Shown piece after piece: positions 55,633-62,528 of a stretch of DNA of 64,000 nt. Positions within the stretch are counted from its first letter, which is position 1, and every line of letters starts with the position of its first letter. The stretch is from Acidimicrobiia bacterium (GTDB lineage: Bacteria > Actinomycetota > Acidimicrobiia > Acidimicrobiales > Acidimicrobilacustridaceae): positions 1 through 64,000 of the forward strand of contig JAFIEP010000099.1 in assembly GCA_020832495.1 (NCBI GenBank), written 5' to 3'. The notes below the pieces were generated by a model. It made no database searches, had not been told where the DNA came from, and saw only the letters and a list, made by a program, of their open reading frames with translations. Both the position numbers and the translations under genes were made by a program.

Positions 55633-56436
55633 ATGTCGTTGTTGTTCTTGGTCCTGGCCGTGGTGGTGACGGTGGTAGCTGCGGTGCGGTCGACGTGGTC
55701 GCCCTGTGGCGTGTCGATGCTGTCGAGCCTCACCCCGCTGTCCGAGCGCGGCCGCGGACACCGCTGGGGGGCCACGGCAGCGTGGTTCGTGGCCGGGGCG
55801 ATCCTCGGTGGTGCCATGCTGGGTGCGGCCGCAGCCGGTCTGGCCGCCGTGGTCGGCGCCGCCGGTCTCACCGGGTCGTTGACCCTGGTGCTGTTCGGTG
55901 CCGCCGCCCTGGTGGCGGCCGCATCCGATGCTCGTGTCGGCGGAGTGCGCCTGCCGGGGCACACGCGGCAGGTCAACGAGCTGTGGTTCGGTCGCTACCG
56001 GGCCTGGGTGTACGGCGGCGGCTTCGGTTGGCAGATCGGTGTGGGCCTGGCCACCTTCATCACCACCGCAGCGGTGTACGTGGTGGTGGTCGCTGCCGTG
56101 GTGAGCGGTTCGCCTCCGGCGGCCTTCGGGCTGTGTGTGGTGTTCGGGCTGGTTCGCGGACTGGCTGTGCTGGCCGGTCGCCGGCTGGTCGACCCGGCCG
56201 CCCTGGCCTCGTTCCACCGCCGCTTCGACGCCCTGGCCGAGCCGAGCCGTCGAGCGACGGCCGCGGTACTCGCCGTGGTGGGGGTGACCGCCGTCGTGGC
56301 CGCCGGTCCTGAAGCTCTGCTGCTGCTCGCCGTCGTCGGGCTCGCGGTTCTGCTGGCTGGCGTGGTGCGCGGCTTCCGTGGTCACGCCGAGCAGCCGAGC
56401 GAGCCCACCTCACCCTCGACCGCAGCCGCCAGCTGA
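55633..56436 (+). CDS. Polytopic membrane protein, possibly CcdA/MauF-like
   Basis: 267 aa, about 6 transmembrane helices. After the first helix comes TWSPCGVSMLSSLTPLSERG (Cys25), then helices AWFVAGAILGGAMLGAAAAG and SLTLVLFGAAALVAAAS, a polar loop with RQVNELWFGRYRAWVYGGGF, and helices including AAFGLCVVFGLVRGLAVLAG (Cys168). A Ser-Pro-Cys in an early helix and a second Cys in a later helix recall CcdA/DsbD electron carriers, to which MauF is related. That relation is inference; homologues are usually listed as unknown. ATG set by the leaderless promoter. Confidence 0.65.
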   Translation: MSLLFLVLAVVVTVVAAVRSTWSPCGVSMLSSLTPLSERGRGHRWGATAAWFVAGAILGGAMLGAAAAGLAAVVGAAGLTGSLTLVLFGAAALVAAASDARVGGVRLPGHTRQVNELWFGRYRAWVYGGGFGWQIGVGLATFITTAAVYVVVVAAVVSGSPPAAFGLCVVFGLVRGLAVLAGRRLVDPAALASFHRRFDALAEPSRRATAAVLAVVGVTAVVAAGPEALLLLAVVGLAVLLAGVVRGFRGHAEQPSEPTSPSTAAAS

Positions 56437-56499: not shown

Positions 56500-58647
56500 T
56501 CAGTCGAACCGCTGGCTCAGCCGCCACAGGACGGCGGCCGCCGCCTGGCGGCTGAGTGGTGCCGTCGGGCGGAAGGTGCCGTCGTCGTACCCGGTGGCCA
56601 ACCCAGCGCCGGCCACGGCGGCGATCTCGGCGGCAAAGGGGTGGGCCTCGTCCACGTCGGTGAACTGACCGGGTGGCTCGTCGGGGAGGGGCTCGGCCAC
56701 CGCTGCGGTCCAGCGGGTCACGAGGGCGGCCAGCGCCTGACGGGTGACCGCTACCGTCGGGCGGAAGGTGCCATCGTCATAGCCGGAGATGATCCCGACC
56801 GCTGCCGCCCAGGTGATCGGATCGGCGAAGGGATGGTCCGGACCGACATCGCTGAAGCCGTGTCCTCGTGTGGCGCTCCCCGGGTGGTCACCGGTGTCGA
56901 GGGGCTGCTCGGCGTGCTCGGGCGCGGGACTGCCGGCCAGTCGCCACAGGAAGGCCACGGCGGCTTGGCGGCTGACGGCGGTGGTCGGTCGGAACGTTCC
57001 GTCGTCGAAGCCGCCGATCACGCCGGCGTCGGCCATGGCGGCGATGGCGTCGTGGAACGGTGCCGTGCTCAACAGGTCCCTGAAGGCGGCGTCGGGGTCC
57101 ACCACCCACCGGACGGCGCAGCCCAGCGTGCGATCCACGCCGACCGACCCGGGGTGGTTGCGGGCCACCACACAGAGCCGTCGGTTGCCGGGCGCGGCGT
57201 CGACGGTGGTCACGAAGCCCCGGGCCGATCCGGCCCACGGGAAGGCCGCACCGACGTCGGGTCGCGAGCGGTCCGCTGGCCCCTCGGCCGCGACGACCCC
57301 GTCGAGTTCGAGGCGCACCGTCACCGGCCCGTCGCCGTCGGGGTCGATGGCCCAGCCGGCGGCCCGGAGGGCCCGCTCACCGTGGGGTTCGACGGCATCG
57401 AGGGAGCCGAACGGTGAGCCGTCGAGCAGGTCGACCTGCGGGCAGCCCAGCAAGCGGGTGCTCTGGGAGCCGAGCGCGTAGACGCAGACAGGCACGCGGC
57501 CCTGCAACATGCCGCTACCCGCCAGTGCGTCGAACCCGTGGTGGTCCCCGACGTCGCTGTAGGCAGCTCCCACGTCGGGGCGATGTGCCGTGGCCGGCCC
57601 CAGGTTGGTGCCCACCACCCCAGGGGTGCCGACCGGGCCTCCGACGTACACGTGGATGCCCACCGAGCGGCCGGGCGAGTCGGCGTCCACCGCCCAGCCG
57701 CGGACGCGTACCCGCCCGACCGCGGGCAGTGCCGGGGCGTGGGCGGCATCGAGCGAGCCCACCGCACCGCGCACGCGACTGCGCTCGGTTCCCACGAAGA
57801 CGTACTCCCAGGGTTCGGGGTTCGGACCCTGCTGGCCGCCGTCGGGTGGATAGCTGGGCAGGAAGCCGAAGCGGCGGGCGTTGCGGTAGTTGTCGGCGGC
57901 CAACCACCGGAAGGCGGCGGTGAACTCGAAGCCACCCACGGTGCCGTTGCCCTGTACCACGTCCACTGCGTAGCCGGTCTGGTGCTTCGAGTACCCCGGG
58001 GGCGCCACCCAGGCCAGCAGGGAGTCGACAGCGCCGTCGGCCTGCCCGGCGGCGATCTGCGAGGGTGACACCGACAAGCGGCTGAGGAACGAGCGGCGCT
58101 GGTCGTCCACGGACCGATAGGCGCTCACCGCACGCAGCTGCACGCCGACCTCGGCGGCCAGGGCGGCCTTCATCTCGTGGTAGGCACCGGCGGCGCGCGG
58201 GTGCATGGGGAGGCCGTCGGCGCTGCCGAACGGTCCGGTGGCCTGCGGTCGACGCGAGTAGCCGCGCCGCTCGGCCAGCAGTCGGATGCGGTCGTCGGCG
58301 GCGGCGTTGCCCGTGATCGGCGGAGGTGGGCCGGTGGGTGGGGTGGTGTCGGGCAGCGCCAACTGATCGAAAATGGCCAGGAACTGCGGTCCGCTGAGGT
58401 GTGGGTAAGCGATCGATGCCCGACCTGTTGTCCGGCCCGAAACGCCAGCATGGTCGACTGCTCCGGCGGCTGCTCCGGCGGCACTCGTTGCGATGTCCGC
58501 CCCTGGTGCGGAGGTGGTGTCGGTCGCAGGGGTGGCTGCCGCCAGCGGTGCGCTGACGAGGATCCCCGCCATCAGTGCGATCGCCACCGCACAGGCTGTT
58601 GCCGATCTGGCCGCCGCCAGCGCCGCCGGTGTCCGTGGTCGCTGCAC
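56500..58647 (-). CDS. Secreted M15/VanY-like peptidase with SLH domains
   Basis: 715 aa. Signal peptide: ATACAVAIALMAGILVSAPL-like stretch. An M15B domain follows (about 110-310) with LRAVSAYRSVDDQRRSF and GYSKHQTGYAVDVVQG (zinc His and Asp). Two repeats of about 90 residues with RGWAxDxD and RPDVGAAx lie at about 315-500, and three SLH domains at about 515-715, ending in SRQAxxAFLWR-like motifs. It should trim peptidoglycan stem peptides while held on the wall. The usual EPWH zinc His is Glu here (EPWEYVFVG), so activity is uncertain. GTG 58647 was chosen from TACGGT 7 nt upstream. Confidence 0.87.
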   Translation of the reverse strand: MQRPRTPAALAAARSATACAVAIALMAGILVSAPLAAATPATDTTSAPGADIATSAAGAAAGAVDHAGVSGRTTGRASIAYPHLSGPQFLAIFDQLALPDTTPPTGPPPPITGNAAADDRIRLLAERRGYSRRPQATGPFGSADGLPMHPRAAGAYHEMKAALAAEVGVQLRAVSAYRSVDDQRRSFLSRLSVSPSQIAAGQADGAVDSLLAWVAPPGYSKHQTGYAVDVVQGNGTVGGFEFTAAFRWLAADNYRNARRFGFLPSYPPDGGQQGPNPEPWEYVFVGTERSRVRGAVGSLDAAHAPALPAVGRVRVRGWAVDADSPGRSVGIHVYVGGPVGTPGVVGTNLGPATAHRPDVGAAYSDVGDHHGFDALAGSGMLQGRVPVCVYALGSQSTRLLGCPQVDLLDGSPFGSLDAVEPHGERALRAAGWAIDPDGDGPVTVRLELDGVVAAEGPADRSRPDVGAAFPWAGSARGFVTTVDAAPGNRRLCVVARNHPGSVGVDRTLGCAVRWVVDPDAAFRDLLSTAPFHDAIAAMADAGVIGGFDDGTFRPTTAVSRQAAVAFLWRLAGSPAPEHAEQPLDTGDHPGSATRGHGFSDVGPDHPFADPITWAAAVGIISGYDDGTFRPTVAVTRQALAALVTRWTAAVAEPLPDEPPGQFTDVDEAHPFAAEIAAVAGAGLATGYDDGTFRPTAPLSRQAAAAVLWRLSQRFD

Positions 58648-58654
58648 GCCCGCC

Positions 58655-58660
58655 ACCGTA
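58655..58660 (-). promoter_or_regulatory. -10 element of leaderless M15-SLH promoter
   Basis: TACGGT on the minus strand, 7 nt before the GTG at 58647. Confidence 0.55.
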
Positions 58661-58744
58661 GCGAACGGGGCGCCGCGACCCGGCGTCGCTGCAACGTTGT
58701 CCATGTCGTGGGCGCTGACCCAGCGGCGGTCTGGTCTGAACCCG

Positions 58745-59209
58745 TCAGGCGATGTCGATGGCGGCCAGCACGTCGTTCACATCCGACAGGTACATGGCTC
58801 GCATCCGGTGGCTGCCCAACACCACGTAGAGGCAGAAGGCCCGGCCCCGCACGCTGAAGAAGCGTTGGCAGCCGCTCTGTCCGGCGATGGTCCGTTGCAT
58901 CTGCTGGGGGGCGAAGTCGCTCTCGCGTAGCGGCCAGGGCACCCGGCGGAGTGCGAACAGGGCGGTGTCCGCTTCGGCAGGGTCGTGCTCGAGCAGCGAG
59001 ATGAACAGGTCGCCGCGACCCATGAGCTCCACGGCGCCACCGCCGTAGTCGCCTCGCTGGGCGGGCAGCGCGAAGTTGGCCAGGTGCAGCACCGGCACGG
59101 GCGTGCCGGCTGCTCGACCGAACGACGCCGGCTCGGGCGGACGGACGTAGATCTCGCCTTCCCACCCGTCGGGTGCGTCGGCGGCCAGCCCTTCGGACGA
59201 GATGCGCAT
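58745..59209 (-). CDS. Conserved-looking hypothetical protein of the Mau-like operon
   Basis: 154 aa, soluble, no signal peptide. Starts MRISSEGLAADAPDGWEGEI (a strand pair typical of a small alpha/beta domain), then VPVLHLANFALPAQRGDYGG and, near the end, GCQRFFSVRGRAFCLYVVLG and a final helix. It begins 9 bp after the stop of the MauD-like thioredoxin gene, so it is the fourth gene of that operon. It has two Cys and no known catalytic motif. It may be a chaperone or quality-control factor for the cysteine-rich protein; function is not established. Confidence 0.72.
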   Translation of the reverse strand: MRISSEGLAADAPDGWEGEIYVRPPEPASFGRAAGTPVPVLHLANFALPAQRGDYGGGAVELMGRGDLFISLLEHDPAEADTALFALRRVPWPLRESDFAPQQMQRTIAGQSGCQRFFSVRGRAFCLYVVLGSHRMRAMYLSDVNDVLAAIDIA

Positions 59210-59218
59210 CAGCGGGCC

Positions 59219-60130
59219 TCAGTCACGACTCGGCTCGGGTGCCGGCGCACCGTCGTCGGTGCGCCCGGCGTCAGTCCGGGCGTCCGGCGCGGCGGGGTCG
59301 GCGGGAGCGGCGTCGGGCGACGGACCGCCAGGGGCGGCGGTGGGGTAGAGGCTCTGATGCCCCGGTCCGATACCAGCCGCTGCCAACTCGGCATCGGCCC
59401 GTGCTTCGCGCTGGCGGCCTCCTTCGCGGACCCGGCGGCGGGACTCGCTGTCGAGGCTGGCGCCGTCGACCACCATGCCGCCGTCCGCTGCGGCCTGCTC
59501 GAGGAGGTTCCGCACCTGCGGCCAGCTGCCCGCTGCGCCCTCGCCCACGATCTGCGAGGTCGGGCCGTCGACCAGGATGAAGTAGGGGCTGACCGGCACC
59601 CCGTAGGCCTCGTAGGCATCGCTCGACATGATGGTGGTGCAGGTGGTCGGAGCGAGGCCCGCCACGGCGGCGGGGCTCTCGGCCTCCGGCCCCTTCGTGA
59701 CGATGACGAGCCGGGTGTCCGTGCCGGGGAGACGGTCCGCCTCACCCCCGGCAAATGCCTGCCAGAACGCCCCACACGTACCGCAGCCGCTGGAGAGGAA
59801 GGCCAGCAACGTGGTGTTGGTCGTGCCCGCCACGCGCACGGTCTTGGCCCCGCCCTGCGGCGTGGAACCCACCAGGTCCACCACGTCGGTGGACTCGGTG
59901 CGCGGTTCGGGAACACCGGGGCGCGTGCGGATCTCGTCGGGATCGTCGGTGACCTGCGCCCGGGGCGTGGCGGCGGCCGGTCGGGTGGCTGGTCGGTCGT
60001 CGTCCTCGTAGACCCCGGCGCCCAGTTCGTGCAGTCGGCGGAGGATCTCGGCGTGGCTGCGCAGCAGTCCGACGACCAGCACGGCCAGGAGCACCACGAC
60101 CGCGGCCAGCGTGGCCACGACCACCGTCAT
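59219..60130 (-). CDS. MauD-like membrane-anchored thioredoxin
   Basis: 303 aa. An N-terminal membrane anchor (VVVATLAAVVVLLAVLVVGL) precedes a Pro/Arg/Asp-rich linker and a thioredoxin-like domain (about 95-245) with active site CGTC at 116-119 (LLAFLSSGCGTCGAFWQAF), YGVPVSPYFILVDGPTSQIV (cis-Pro region) and SWPQVRNLLEQA. The tail after 250 is disordered. MauD proteins assist disulfide formation in methylamine dehydrogenase light chain. Here the adjacent genes encode a light-chain-like protein and a MauE-like protein, with ATGA overlap to the former, so the same maturation job is inferred. Confidence 0.85.
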   Translation of the reverse strand: MTVVVATLAAVVVLLAVLVVGLLRSHAEILRRLHELGAGVYEDDDRPATRPAAATPRAQVTDDPDEIRTRPGVPEPRTESTDVVDLVGSTPQGGAKTVRVAGTTNTTLLAFLSSGCGTCGAFWQAFAGGEADRLPGTDTRLVIVTKGPEAESPAAVAGLAPTTCTTIMSSDAYEAYGVPVSPYFILVDGPTSQIVGEGAAGSWPQVRNLLEQAAADGGMVVDGASLDSESRRRVREGGRQREARADAELAAAGIGPGHQSLYPTAAPGGPSPDAAPADPAAPDARTDAGRTDDGAPAPEPSRD

Positions 60131-61935
60131 GGGGCAGCCCGCTCGTGGAGGCGGTGCAGGAAGGCGGCCATGGCCTGACGGCTCACCGGTGCGCCCGGTC
60201 GGAAGGTCCCGTCGGCGAAGCCCTGGGCGATGCCGGAACCGGCCAGCCAGGCGATCTCCGCAGCGAAGGGATGGTCGGGGCCGACGTCGCTGAACGGCGA
60301 GGTGCTCGCAGGGATCTCCTCGTCGCTGACCCAGGGCCAGAACCGCTGCAGGAACGCCGCCATCGCCTGACGGCTCACGGCTTCGGCCGCCCGGAAGGTG
60401 CCATCGGGGAACCCCTGGGCGATCCCCGTGGCGGCCAGCCAGCCGATCTCCGTGAAGAAGGGGTCCTGGGGTCCGACGTCGTCGAAGGCAGGGGCCGGCC
60501 CGGGTGCAGCAGCGCCGAGGAGACCGGCCAGACGCTGGAGGAAGGCGGCCATGGCCTGGCGACTCACCGGCGCCGTCGGTCGGAAGGTGCCGTCGGGATA
60601 GCCGCCGGCCACGCTGGCACCCACCAGCCAGACCACGTCGTCCGCGAAGGGGTTGTTGACCGACACGTCGGAGAAGCCGGCCACGCCGCCCACGGTGGCG
60701 GTGGTGCAAGCCAACAGGGCGTTGCCCTGTGCGCTGGTGGAGACGATCTCGGCGCAGACCGTGCGGGTGCCCGGGTCGAGACCGGTCACGGTGACGTCGA
60801 AGCCACGGTTCGAGCCGTACTGCGGGAAGGCGGCCCCCACGTCGGGTCGCGACAAGTTGGCGCGCGCGGTGGCCACGTGCGCGCCGTTGGCCAGGATGCG
60901 CACGTCGACGGCGCCCGAGAAGCCGTTGAGCACGGCCCAGCCGCGCACCCGCAGCGTGCCCGCGCCGCCAGTGGCCTCGTCGATCGTGCCGATGGCGCGG
61001 TTGAACGTCGTGGTGCACCCGAGATCGGCGTTCTGCGACCCGAAGCCCACGTTGCGAGCGGTGACGCACACCTGGCGGGGCACCACGCCACCGACGCTGA
61101 TGGTGACGTCGAAGCCTCGCCGGTCCCCCCAGCCCACGAAGGCGTTGGCCACGTCGGGTCGGGGCCGGTCGGCGATCACACTGCTGACCAGCGCCCCGTC
61201 GACGCGGACGTCGATGGGCACGGGGTCGACCACGTCGAAGTCGAGGCCCCAACCCTGGATGCGCACCTGCCGGCCACTGGTCGTGATGGTCTCGGTGATC
61301 GTGTCCACGTTGCCGATGGGTACGTGCAGGCACGGGCGGTCGTGGTTGGCCGTGTTGTTGTCCACGCGCACCGTGGTGGTACAGGTGGCGTCAAGCGCCC
61401 AAGGTGGCACGCAGGTCACCACCCGGCAGACGATGGGGCCGATGCAGGCGATCTGCTGGTTGCACTGCCCGTAGCGGAACTCGGTGCAGCCGGCCTTGCG
61501 GTTGTTGCAGCTGCCGTTGGCGCAGCCGCACGGTGTGCCCGAGCAGGCCCCCGAGCAGATGCCGTTGGCGCCGCAGCCGCAGCCGCCACAGGGGGTGTTG
61601 CAGTCCATGTAGTAGCGGGGTCCGCCGCAGAAGGCGGTGCCGTCCACCTTCCACCATCCTCCGAGGATGGTGCCGGCCGGGCAGGTGTTGTGGCCGGTGA
61701 GGGTGCAGCAGAACTCCGTGTAGCCGTCGCAGCACAGCGACCCGCACGGACACGACGACCCGCTGCAGTTGCAGATGGCCCGGTAGGCGTCGACCGGCTG
61801 CAGCGCGTAGGCCAGCGGGTTGGTGGCCAGCGCGCTCCCCGCGACCGCCGTGCCCGCCAGGAAGCCTCGGCGGCCGAAGCGGTTGGCCAGCAGCCCGGCG
61901 GCCCGATCGACCAGTCGGGCGGTGGGGGCGCTCAC
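60127..61935 (-). CDS. Cys-rich Tat-exported protein: MADH light-chain-like domain plus SLH domains
   Basis: 602 aa. Tat signal FGRRGFLAG (RR 22-23). Residues 55-185 hold 25 cysteines, with CNCSGSSCPCGSLCCDGYTE, FCCTLTGHNTCPAGT, GGWWKVDGTAFCGGPRYYMD and later CGC and CxGxC runs. Order and spacing resemble methylamine dehydrogenase light chain, including CPxGT before a Trp, but the second cofactor Trp position reads QQIACIGP (Ala). Two RGWxxD...RPDV repeats (about 205-405) and three SLH domains (about 415-600, SRQAMAAFLxR) follow. It is probably a disulfide-rich surface protein matured by the MauE/MauD-like neighbours. GTG start in GTGA overlap with the MauE-like gene. Confidence 0.8.
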   Translation of the reverse strand: MSAPTARLVDRAAGLLANRFGRRGFLAGTAVAGSALATNPLAYALQPVDAYRAICNCSGSSCPCGSLCCDGYTEFCCTLTGHNTCPAGTILGGWWKVDGTAFCGGPRYYMDCNTPCGGCGCGANGICSGACSGTPCGCANGSCNNRKAGCTEFRYGQCNQQIACIGPIVCRVVTCVPPWALDATCTTTVRVDNNTANHDRPCLHVPIGNVDTITETITTSGRQVRIQGWGLDFDVVDPVPIDVRVDGALVSSVIADRPRPDVANAFVGWGDRRGFDVTISVGGVVPRQVCVTARNVGFGSQNADLGCTTTFNRAIGTIDEATGGAGTLRVRGWAVLNGFSGAVDVRILANGAHVATARANLSRPDVGAAFPQYGSNRGFDVTVTGLDPGTRTVCAEIVSTSAQGNALLACTTATVGGVAGFSDVSVNNPFADDVVWLVGASVAGGYPDGTFRPTAPVSRQAMAAFLQRLAGLLGAAAPGPAPAFDDVGPQDPFFTEIGWLAATGIAQGFPDGTFRAAEAVSRQAMAAFLQRFWPWVSDEEIPASTSPFSDVGPDHPFAAEIAWLAGSGIAQGFADGTFRPGAPVSRQAMAAFLHRLHERAAP

Positions 61936-62528
61936 GAGGAGGCCGCCGGGGTCGGGCGCTCGATGCGTCGGGGCGGCGCAACCAGGGCGAAGGACGGCGC
62001 CGCGGTGGTGGAGGACCGGTCTCGGCGGGTGGTGGCCATGGTGGCGGGGAGCACGGTCATGGCCACCACGAACAACCAGGTGCCCACCACGATGAGGGCA
62101 CCGAGCGTGAGGGCGCCGACGGTCGATCCGGCGGCGGCGTCGAGCAGGCTCGGTGCCGAGGTCACCGCCGCCGCCCCGGCCACGAACGCGCCGCTCACGT
62201 CGGCACCCACGTGCCATGCCGTGGGCGGGCTCGACAGTGATCCGAAGCAACCGCATGACGCCGCGGCGTCGCCCTTGCGGACCAGCACCACCATGAGTGC
62301 CGAGAAGAGGGCGTAGGCCACGGCCACGGCCAGCCAGGTGAGGCCGCCCATCACGACGGCGACTACCCCGGCGGTGATCTCGACCGCGCCGATGCCGGCC
62401 ACGACCAGCGTGGACGACGGCAGGCGCAGGGTGCGCAGCATGGCTCGGGTGGGCTCGGGGTCGCGCAACTTGAAGACGCCAGCCACCACCAGGGCGGCGG
62501 CCACGATGACTGCCGGGCCGACCATCAC
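61932..62528 (-). CDS. MauE-like (DoxX-related) membrane protein
   Basis: 198 aa, about 4-5 transmembrane helices. It starts MVGPAVIVAAALVVAGVFKL, which is the DoxX/MauE first helix with the FKLRDP motif. Helices TLVVAGIGAVEITAGVVAVV and WLAVAVAYALFSALMVVLVR follow, then the Cys motif SCGCFGS (92-97), as in MauE and VKOR-like thiol proteins, and a long C-terminal tail. MauE passes redox equivalents for disulfide formation in the periplasmic light chain. It is the first gene of the four-gene operon. The GTG start has TAGCGT 7 nt upstream (leaderless); the next codon is ATG. Confidence 0.85.
   Translation of the reverse strand: MMVGPAVIVAAALVVAGVFKLRDPEPTRAMLRTLRLPSSTLVVAGIGAVEITAGVVAVVMGGLTWLAVAVAYALFSALMVVLVRKGDAAASCGCFGSLSSPPTAWHVGADVSGAFVAGAAAVTSAPSLLDAAAGSTVGALTLGALIVVGTWLFVVAMTVLPATMATTRRDRSSTTAAPSFALVAPPRRIERPTPAASS

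Follow-up and report, generated by a model that had tools for sequence, protein, structure and literature searches.

The locus described here raises the question of what homologues of the Mau maturation proteins do beside a cysteine-rich protein in a genome in which methylamine dehydrogenase itself is not found. It lies in a contig of an Acidimicrobiia bacterium (JAFIEP010000099.1), of which the whole analysed stretch of 64,000 nucleotides is referred to as the window. A reading made earlier from the sequence alone (the sequence-only reading) had proposed a MauE-like, a light-chain-like, a MauD-like and a small gene, together forming an export and oxidative-folding system for a wall-bound protein.

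Organization of the locus

Four minus-strand genes, overlapping or nearly so, were located as that reading had claimed. Gene E (61932-62528) encodes a predicted membrane protein of 198 aa belonging to the DoxX/MauE family, with an invariant K, an invariant E and a CGC(FG) motif. It overlaps by a few bp with A (60127-61935), whose translation is a cysteine-rich, Tat-type exported protein of 602 aa with C-terminal SLH repeats, and A overlaps similarly with D (59222-60130), a MauD homologue predicted to be a membrane-anchored thioredoxin-like protein with a CGTC motif. A short gap separates D from U (58745-59209), which encodes a conserved 154-aa protein of unassigned family with no visible signal or membrane segment.

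Three parts are recognizable in A, all encoded on the minus strand. Residues 1-46 (61798-61935) comprise a long n-region, a twin-arginine motif and a hydrophobic stretch; residues 47-203 (61327-61797) form a cysteine-rich domain with 26 cysteines and the invariant motifs WW, RY..DC and FRYG; and the C-terminal region (approximately 60166-60680) contains three stretches of SLH repeat (PF00395), a lineage-specific anchor.

The sequence-only reading held that there was no MauF. A MauF homologue, F, is encoded within the window on the plus strand (55633-56436; cysteine form, RSTWSPCGVSML), beyond the coordinates covered by that reading, and by this comparison the Mau resemblance of the locus is stronger than had been supposed. 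Because F lies apart from the other genes and is read from the opposite strand, it would not share a transcript with E-A-D-U, and the case for its connection to A in the window draws on the relatives described below. Between U and F, about 40 bp past U, lies a minus-strand gene (56500-58704) for a VanY-type peptidase that carries RPDV..GF-like repeats as well as SLH repeats similar to those of A. It was rejected as a member of the module, being absent from the most recurrent neighbours when the neighbours at other loci were clustered.

Relationships of E, D, F and U

E matches the MauE family PF07291 with an E-value of 2.8e-15 and 57.2 bits (curated cut-off 27), and the residues K20, E50, C92 and C94 are invariant in its family, including Paracoccus MauE. 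Profiles of the E, D, F, A and U families were built without Paracoccus sequences and then run against the Paracoccus mau locus. MauE was found by the E profile (5.5e-10), MauD by the D profile (3.6e-10) and MauF by the F profile (3.9e-19); the A and U profiles gave no significant match there. D by itself has no match in Pfam, and comparison of its family with MauD by hhalign gives 97.7% (E-value 2.2e-12) over 176 columns, membrane anchor included, with both CxxC cysteines, C116 and C119, invariant in 43 sequences. The STWSPCG motif is identical in the F of the window and in Paracoccus MauF, and among members of the F family 16 of 45 match DsbD_2 (best 6.3e-7) and four match DsbD_TM, which points to a protein of the DsbD/CcdA kind. 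Judged by these profiles, E is a genuine MauE and D and F are homologues of MauD and MauF; the MauE-like and MauD-like assignments of the sequence-only reading thus hold.

The U family has 70 sequences and yields a confident AlphaFold2 model (pLDDT 96). No match to U was found in Pfam or the PDB, and the fold search gave only weak resemblance to MucB and to PsbP/LpqN/EagT6-type proteins, at E-values of at least 0.06.

A five-gene module in Actinomycetota

The synteny of the genes was surveyed with one genome per species, giving 68 loci with A. The linkage of E, A, D and U expected from the window recurs across Actinomycetota, and clustering of the neighbours uncovered F as a further member, located in most relatives inside the operon between D and U. 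The gene order is E-A-D-F-U in approximately 30 loci, D-F-U-E-A in seven, E-D-F-U-A in four and D-U-E-A-F in four; F is elsewhere in the genome in a few cases, and most of the other loci end at contig edges. A is present in 77 of the 298 genomes of the order and also in some genomes of other classes.

Among 148 genomes of the class, A and U are each present in 29, with 28 common to both; strong F matches occur in 28, all of them genomes with A, and strong D matches in 27, so that the sets of genomes carrying A, U, F and D are nearly identical. That the five genes have been reshuffled yet not broken up is strong evidence, at the level of gene content and order, for a joint function. One genome with the main module also carries a second, diverged F-like gene (E-value 1e-18) adjoining a D-like gene (1e-12) at locus L175 (G688:C8:192700-194900); the two may be a MauD/MauF pair that serves some other substrate.

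The cysteine-rich protein A

The twin arginine of A, placed before the hydrophobic stretch, is invariant in 76 of 76 relatives, and the N-terminus scores just below the cut-off of TIGR01409. From the invariant RR we infer that A is a Tat-type precursor exported by the Tat route.

The sequence-only reading took fusion to SLH domains as part of the system. The three SLH repeats of A in the window are clear (PF00395, E-value 1.2e-30), and no SLH pattern was found in A of the 68 relatives in their genome contigs, so the fusion stands for the window and is rejected as a general property. In the relatives the domain is followed by LGFP, ricin-type lectin, DUF4214, FG-GAP-like or unclassified repeats, or by nothing; loci L061, L070, L090, L095 and L125, for example, have the same cysteine-rich domain fused to very different display or binding modules, among them DUF4214, propeller-like, ricin-type lectin, FG-GAP-like and LGFP sequences. 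A TGA codon that appears to lie inside A in loci L134-L137 was considered as a recoding site and rejected; we read it as the normal stop codon of stand-alone proteins that finish just past the domain.

The alignment of the domain contains 67 sequences. Across 100 different sequences the domain has between 16 and 28 cysteines; the count is even in 95 of them and odd in five, although, these being mutually related, the chance probability of an even count is not to be taken literally. Cysteine columns are gained or lost pairwise (77/202, 136/150 and 68/138). Both the even number and the pairwise changes indicate that the cysteines of A are paired. In loci L097, L098 and L116-L133, from other actinobacterial lineages, U is directly upstream of A and several of the extra cysteine columns of the window type are jointly absent.

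A different reading of these cysteines is that they bind metal and that E, D and F keep them reduced, A being a metallothionein-like surface protein. Such a role would suit F as a member of the DsbD/CcdA superfamily, which is known above all for carriers of reductant. On the other side, disulfides agree better with the even parity and pairwise loss, A seems to be an exported protein, and a link between MauE and the formation of disulfides has been drawn (PMC7794033, in its discussion). We regard metal binding as distinctly improbable and take the cysteines to form disulfides.

The domain also has many invariant residues other than cysteine (W94, W95, R107, Y108, D111, F153-R154-Y155-G156, R171 and T195), so that a role beyond its own structural stability is probable.

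A and the methylamine dehydrogenase light chain

A had been described as light-chain-like. Profile comparison with the light-chain family gave no match for any of 59 members (PF02975), although Paracoccus MauA is detected at 2e-53 with this library, and a search of the PDB with the A family profile returned nothing even at an E-value of 10. A Foldseek search with the AlphaFold2 model of the domain (pLDDT 86, pTM 0.81) returned no light chain and nothing significant. When the cysteine domain alone is compared with MauA, the alignment is mainly at CPPGT, and its score is reached by three of 300 column permutations; mature MauA does not outscore shuffled MauA and falls below the best shuffles. 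These tests leave a short motif alone, CPPGT...W, common to A and MauA. Kinship of A with the light chain is accordingly not supported by the sequence or fold searches.

Could A still be a true, diverged MauA that has kept its maturation factors and lost the heavy chain and the TTQ cofactor? Both proteins have a long RR-type N-terminus, and a profile comparison of the full lengths gives 94% with an E-value of 1.2e-7; they share the CPPGT...W motif and the same partners E, D and F, and the order E-D-(F-U)-A is seen in four loci. The full-length score, however, is due for the most part to the Tat-like N-terminus; generic Tat signals, used as controls, score in this part too, with the MauA signals ranking top. 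Nor do the co-lost cysteine pairs point to the disulfide pattern of the light chain. Together with the results of the profile, PDB, Foldseek, shuffle and permutation tests, this makes descent from MauA unlikely, and we continue to treat A as a separate cysteine-rich protein.

Profiles of the heavy chain, light chain and MauG were run against the 4.46 Mb genome (96.9% complete), and none scored over its cut-off; in this search the MauG positive controls were detected and the heavy-chain controls were silent, although the Pfam heavy-chain model does find Paracoccus MauB. With this qualification, the sequence-only reading was right that heavy chain and MauG are lacking. Of the residues that form TTQ, Trp57 may correspond to W95, and the Trp108 column of A contains A, P, R or S and never Trp. 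Since no MauG was found, TTQ in A is very unlikely.

A could alternatively be an enzyme or electron carrier with a Trp-based, protein-derived cofactor, formed with the help of E, D and F as in the amine dehydrogenases. The invariant residues listed above would be in keeping with this. Against it are the lack of a MauG-type gene in the genome and of Trp at the Trp108-aligned position, the lack of a conserved electron-acceptor gene among the recurrent neighbours, and the C-terminal modules of A, which are display or binding domains. Such a cofactor seems to us quite unlikely. The central idea of the sequence-only reading, that a thiol-redox system of the Mau type serves an exported cysteine-rich protein and not methylamine dehydrogenase, is well supported through the linkage of MauE, MauD and MauF homologues to A and the parity of its cysteines. 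Of the oxidative-folding system originally proposed, the Mau-type redox set and its exported cysteine-rich protein remain, and general wall anchoring through SLH does not.

An apparent selenocysteine form of F

The open reading frames of the in-operon F genes all start exactly one residue past the position of the motif cysteine. The codon at that position is TGA in 60 of 60 cases, and never TAA or TAG. Over all fetched loci there are 82 rows with TGA and 19 with cysteine (n=101), the latter including Paracoccus MauF, and the TGA coincides with the cysteine of the MauF motif STWSPCG. The frame before the TGA encodes RSTWSP, as in the cysteine forms and Paracoccus MauF, and is always in frame; the residues flanking the TGA on both sides are conserved with those of the cysteine forms. 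Examples of the TGA form can be seen at L035:7446, L036:7729, L062, L117 and L152.

Two hairpins are present just 3' of the TGA. The main type comprises 43 sequences, in which 98.2% of the pair cells are paired and 28 double-sided changes occur at three of the pairs, a result unmatched by any shuffled or slid version; one example is the covariation between a base in a Leu/Phe codon and the silent base of a Glu codon close to it. The other 15 sequences have an alternative hairpin with the loop GGTC. Consensus folding of all 58 SECIS regions together gave no covariation because the two hairpin registers are mixed, and the slide control, equivocal for all 58, is clear after the GGTC type is set apart. 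A paired serine codon is AGC in 73 of 73 TGA forms versus one of 18 cysteine forms.

The genomes were also compared for the selenocysteine machinery. SelA scores over its cut-off in 19 of 19 genomes with the TGA form versus four of nine with the cysteine form (p 0.0013, class set), and tRNA-Sec does so in 18 of the 19 TGA-form genomes, the exception being a fragmented assembly. In a tree of F the 18 actinobacterial cysteine forms constitute one clade (100/99) nested among the TGA forms, which suggests that Sec was replaced by Cys once; the tree is to be read with caution, given the very long branch that leads to the Paracoccus row. The F of the window has a TGT cysteine codon, which fits with a genome in which no SelA was found.

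If the TGA were an ordinary stop codon, it would close the frame of a short peptide, and the sequence downstream would be a gene of its own that begins with the ATG of GESML; an ATG is indeed located a few codons past the TGA. Such an arrangement sits poorly with the RSTWSP encoded in frame ahead of the TGA, the exclusive use of TGA, the SECIS-like covariation and the presence of SelA in all checked TGA carriers, and we consider it highly improbable. In most relatives, then, F is apparently a selenoprotein, as far as codon, RNA structure and gene content can tell. The main texts of three papers that review or survey prokaryotic selenoproteins (PMC13188914, PMC12013277 and PMC9312934) make no mention of Mau proteins; by these texts the family is apparently so far unlisted, and it could hide in surveys as 'hypothetical protein'.

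Proposed mechanism

We propose that the locus encodes a dedicated extracytoplasmic thiol-redox maturation module with A as its one substrate, a reading that we hold to be probable in the following form. A would be carried across the membrane by the Tat system, as its invariant RR implies, and outside its 16-28 cysteines would be converted to disulfides. E, as a member of the DoxX/MauE family, may be a quinone-linked membrane oxidant through which the quinone pool receives the electrons set free as disulfides form; D, with its CxxC and membrane anchor, may be the thioredoxin-like exchanger that swaps disulfides with A; and F, a putative transmembrane thiol carrier of the DsbD/CcdA type with one conserved Cys or Sec, may carry electrons from thiols across the membrane for use in shuffling, or else may reset D. 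The three would form a chain for oxidation and shuffling; the sequences are compatible with electron flow towards oxidation as well as towards reduction or isomerisation. For MauF, the redox residue in most relatives would be Sec, inserted at a UGA with a SECIS-like RNA. U has no signal or membrane segments and for this reason is placed in the cytoplasm, where, at a guess, it could be a chaperone of A before export. The finished domain would be displayed by the C-terminal module of each lineage, SLH in this case. In the discussion of PMC7794033, MauE is likewise thought to be active in disulfide formation, and the role of MauD is called unclear.

Comparison with known systems

The mau cluster of Paracoccus denitrificans (mauFBEDACJG) likewise has MauE, MauD and MauF beside a cysteine-rich protein with an RR signal, and its order is kept in those relatives with E-D-(F-U)-A. 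The module differs in having no heavy chain, amicyanin or MauG, in the extra gene U, in the surface-display domains of its substrate, which is not demonstrably MauA, and in a MauF that is apparently a selenoprotein in most members. An amine dehydrogenase cluster on a Haematobacter plasmid also has MauE and MauD together with a disulfide-rich light chain; there the large subunit and cytochromes are present, and MauF is absent from the stretch examined. Candidate RiPP clusters of Streptomyces (PMC7794033) resemble the module in that MauE/MauD occur apart from the rest of the mau genes, close to small predicted precursors; these precursors are small peptides and not a Tat protein, and neither F nor U is described in the passages considered. 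DsbD/CcdA-type transmembrane thiol carriers (PF13386 and PF02683) are related to F in that members of its family match both models, and differ in that F has one conserved redox residue, Sec in most cases, within the MauF-specific motif STWSP(C/U)G.

What MauF, MauE and MauD do has remained obscure, since these proteins have been known chiefly next to methylamine dehydrogenase. Finding the trio with a different cysteine-rich, Tat-type protein would make their function separable from amine oxidation and TTQ, and testable as such. Selenocysteine at the sole conserved redox position of MauF would point to the catalytic residue, and the candidate selenoprotein family is one whose genes standard gene callers would cut at the TGA. 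We lean, with some reserve, towards the broader view that MauD, MauE and MauF are a general oxidative-folding machine for cysteine-rich Tat substrates, with methylamine dehydrogenase as just one of its clients; the Actinomycetota would use it for an uncharacterised surface protein, and MauF would there be ancestrally a selenoprotein, of an unlisted family. The module may thereby bear on how a Tat-exported protein acquires many disulfides.
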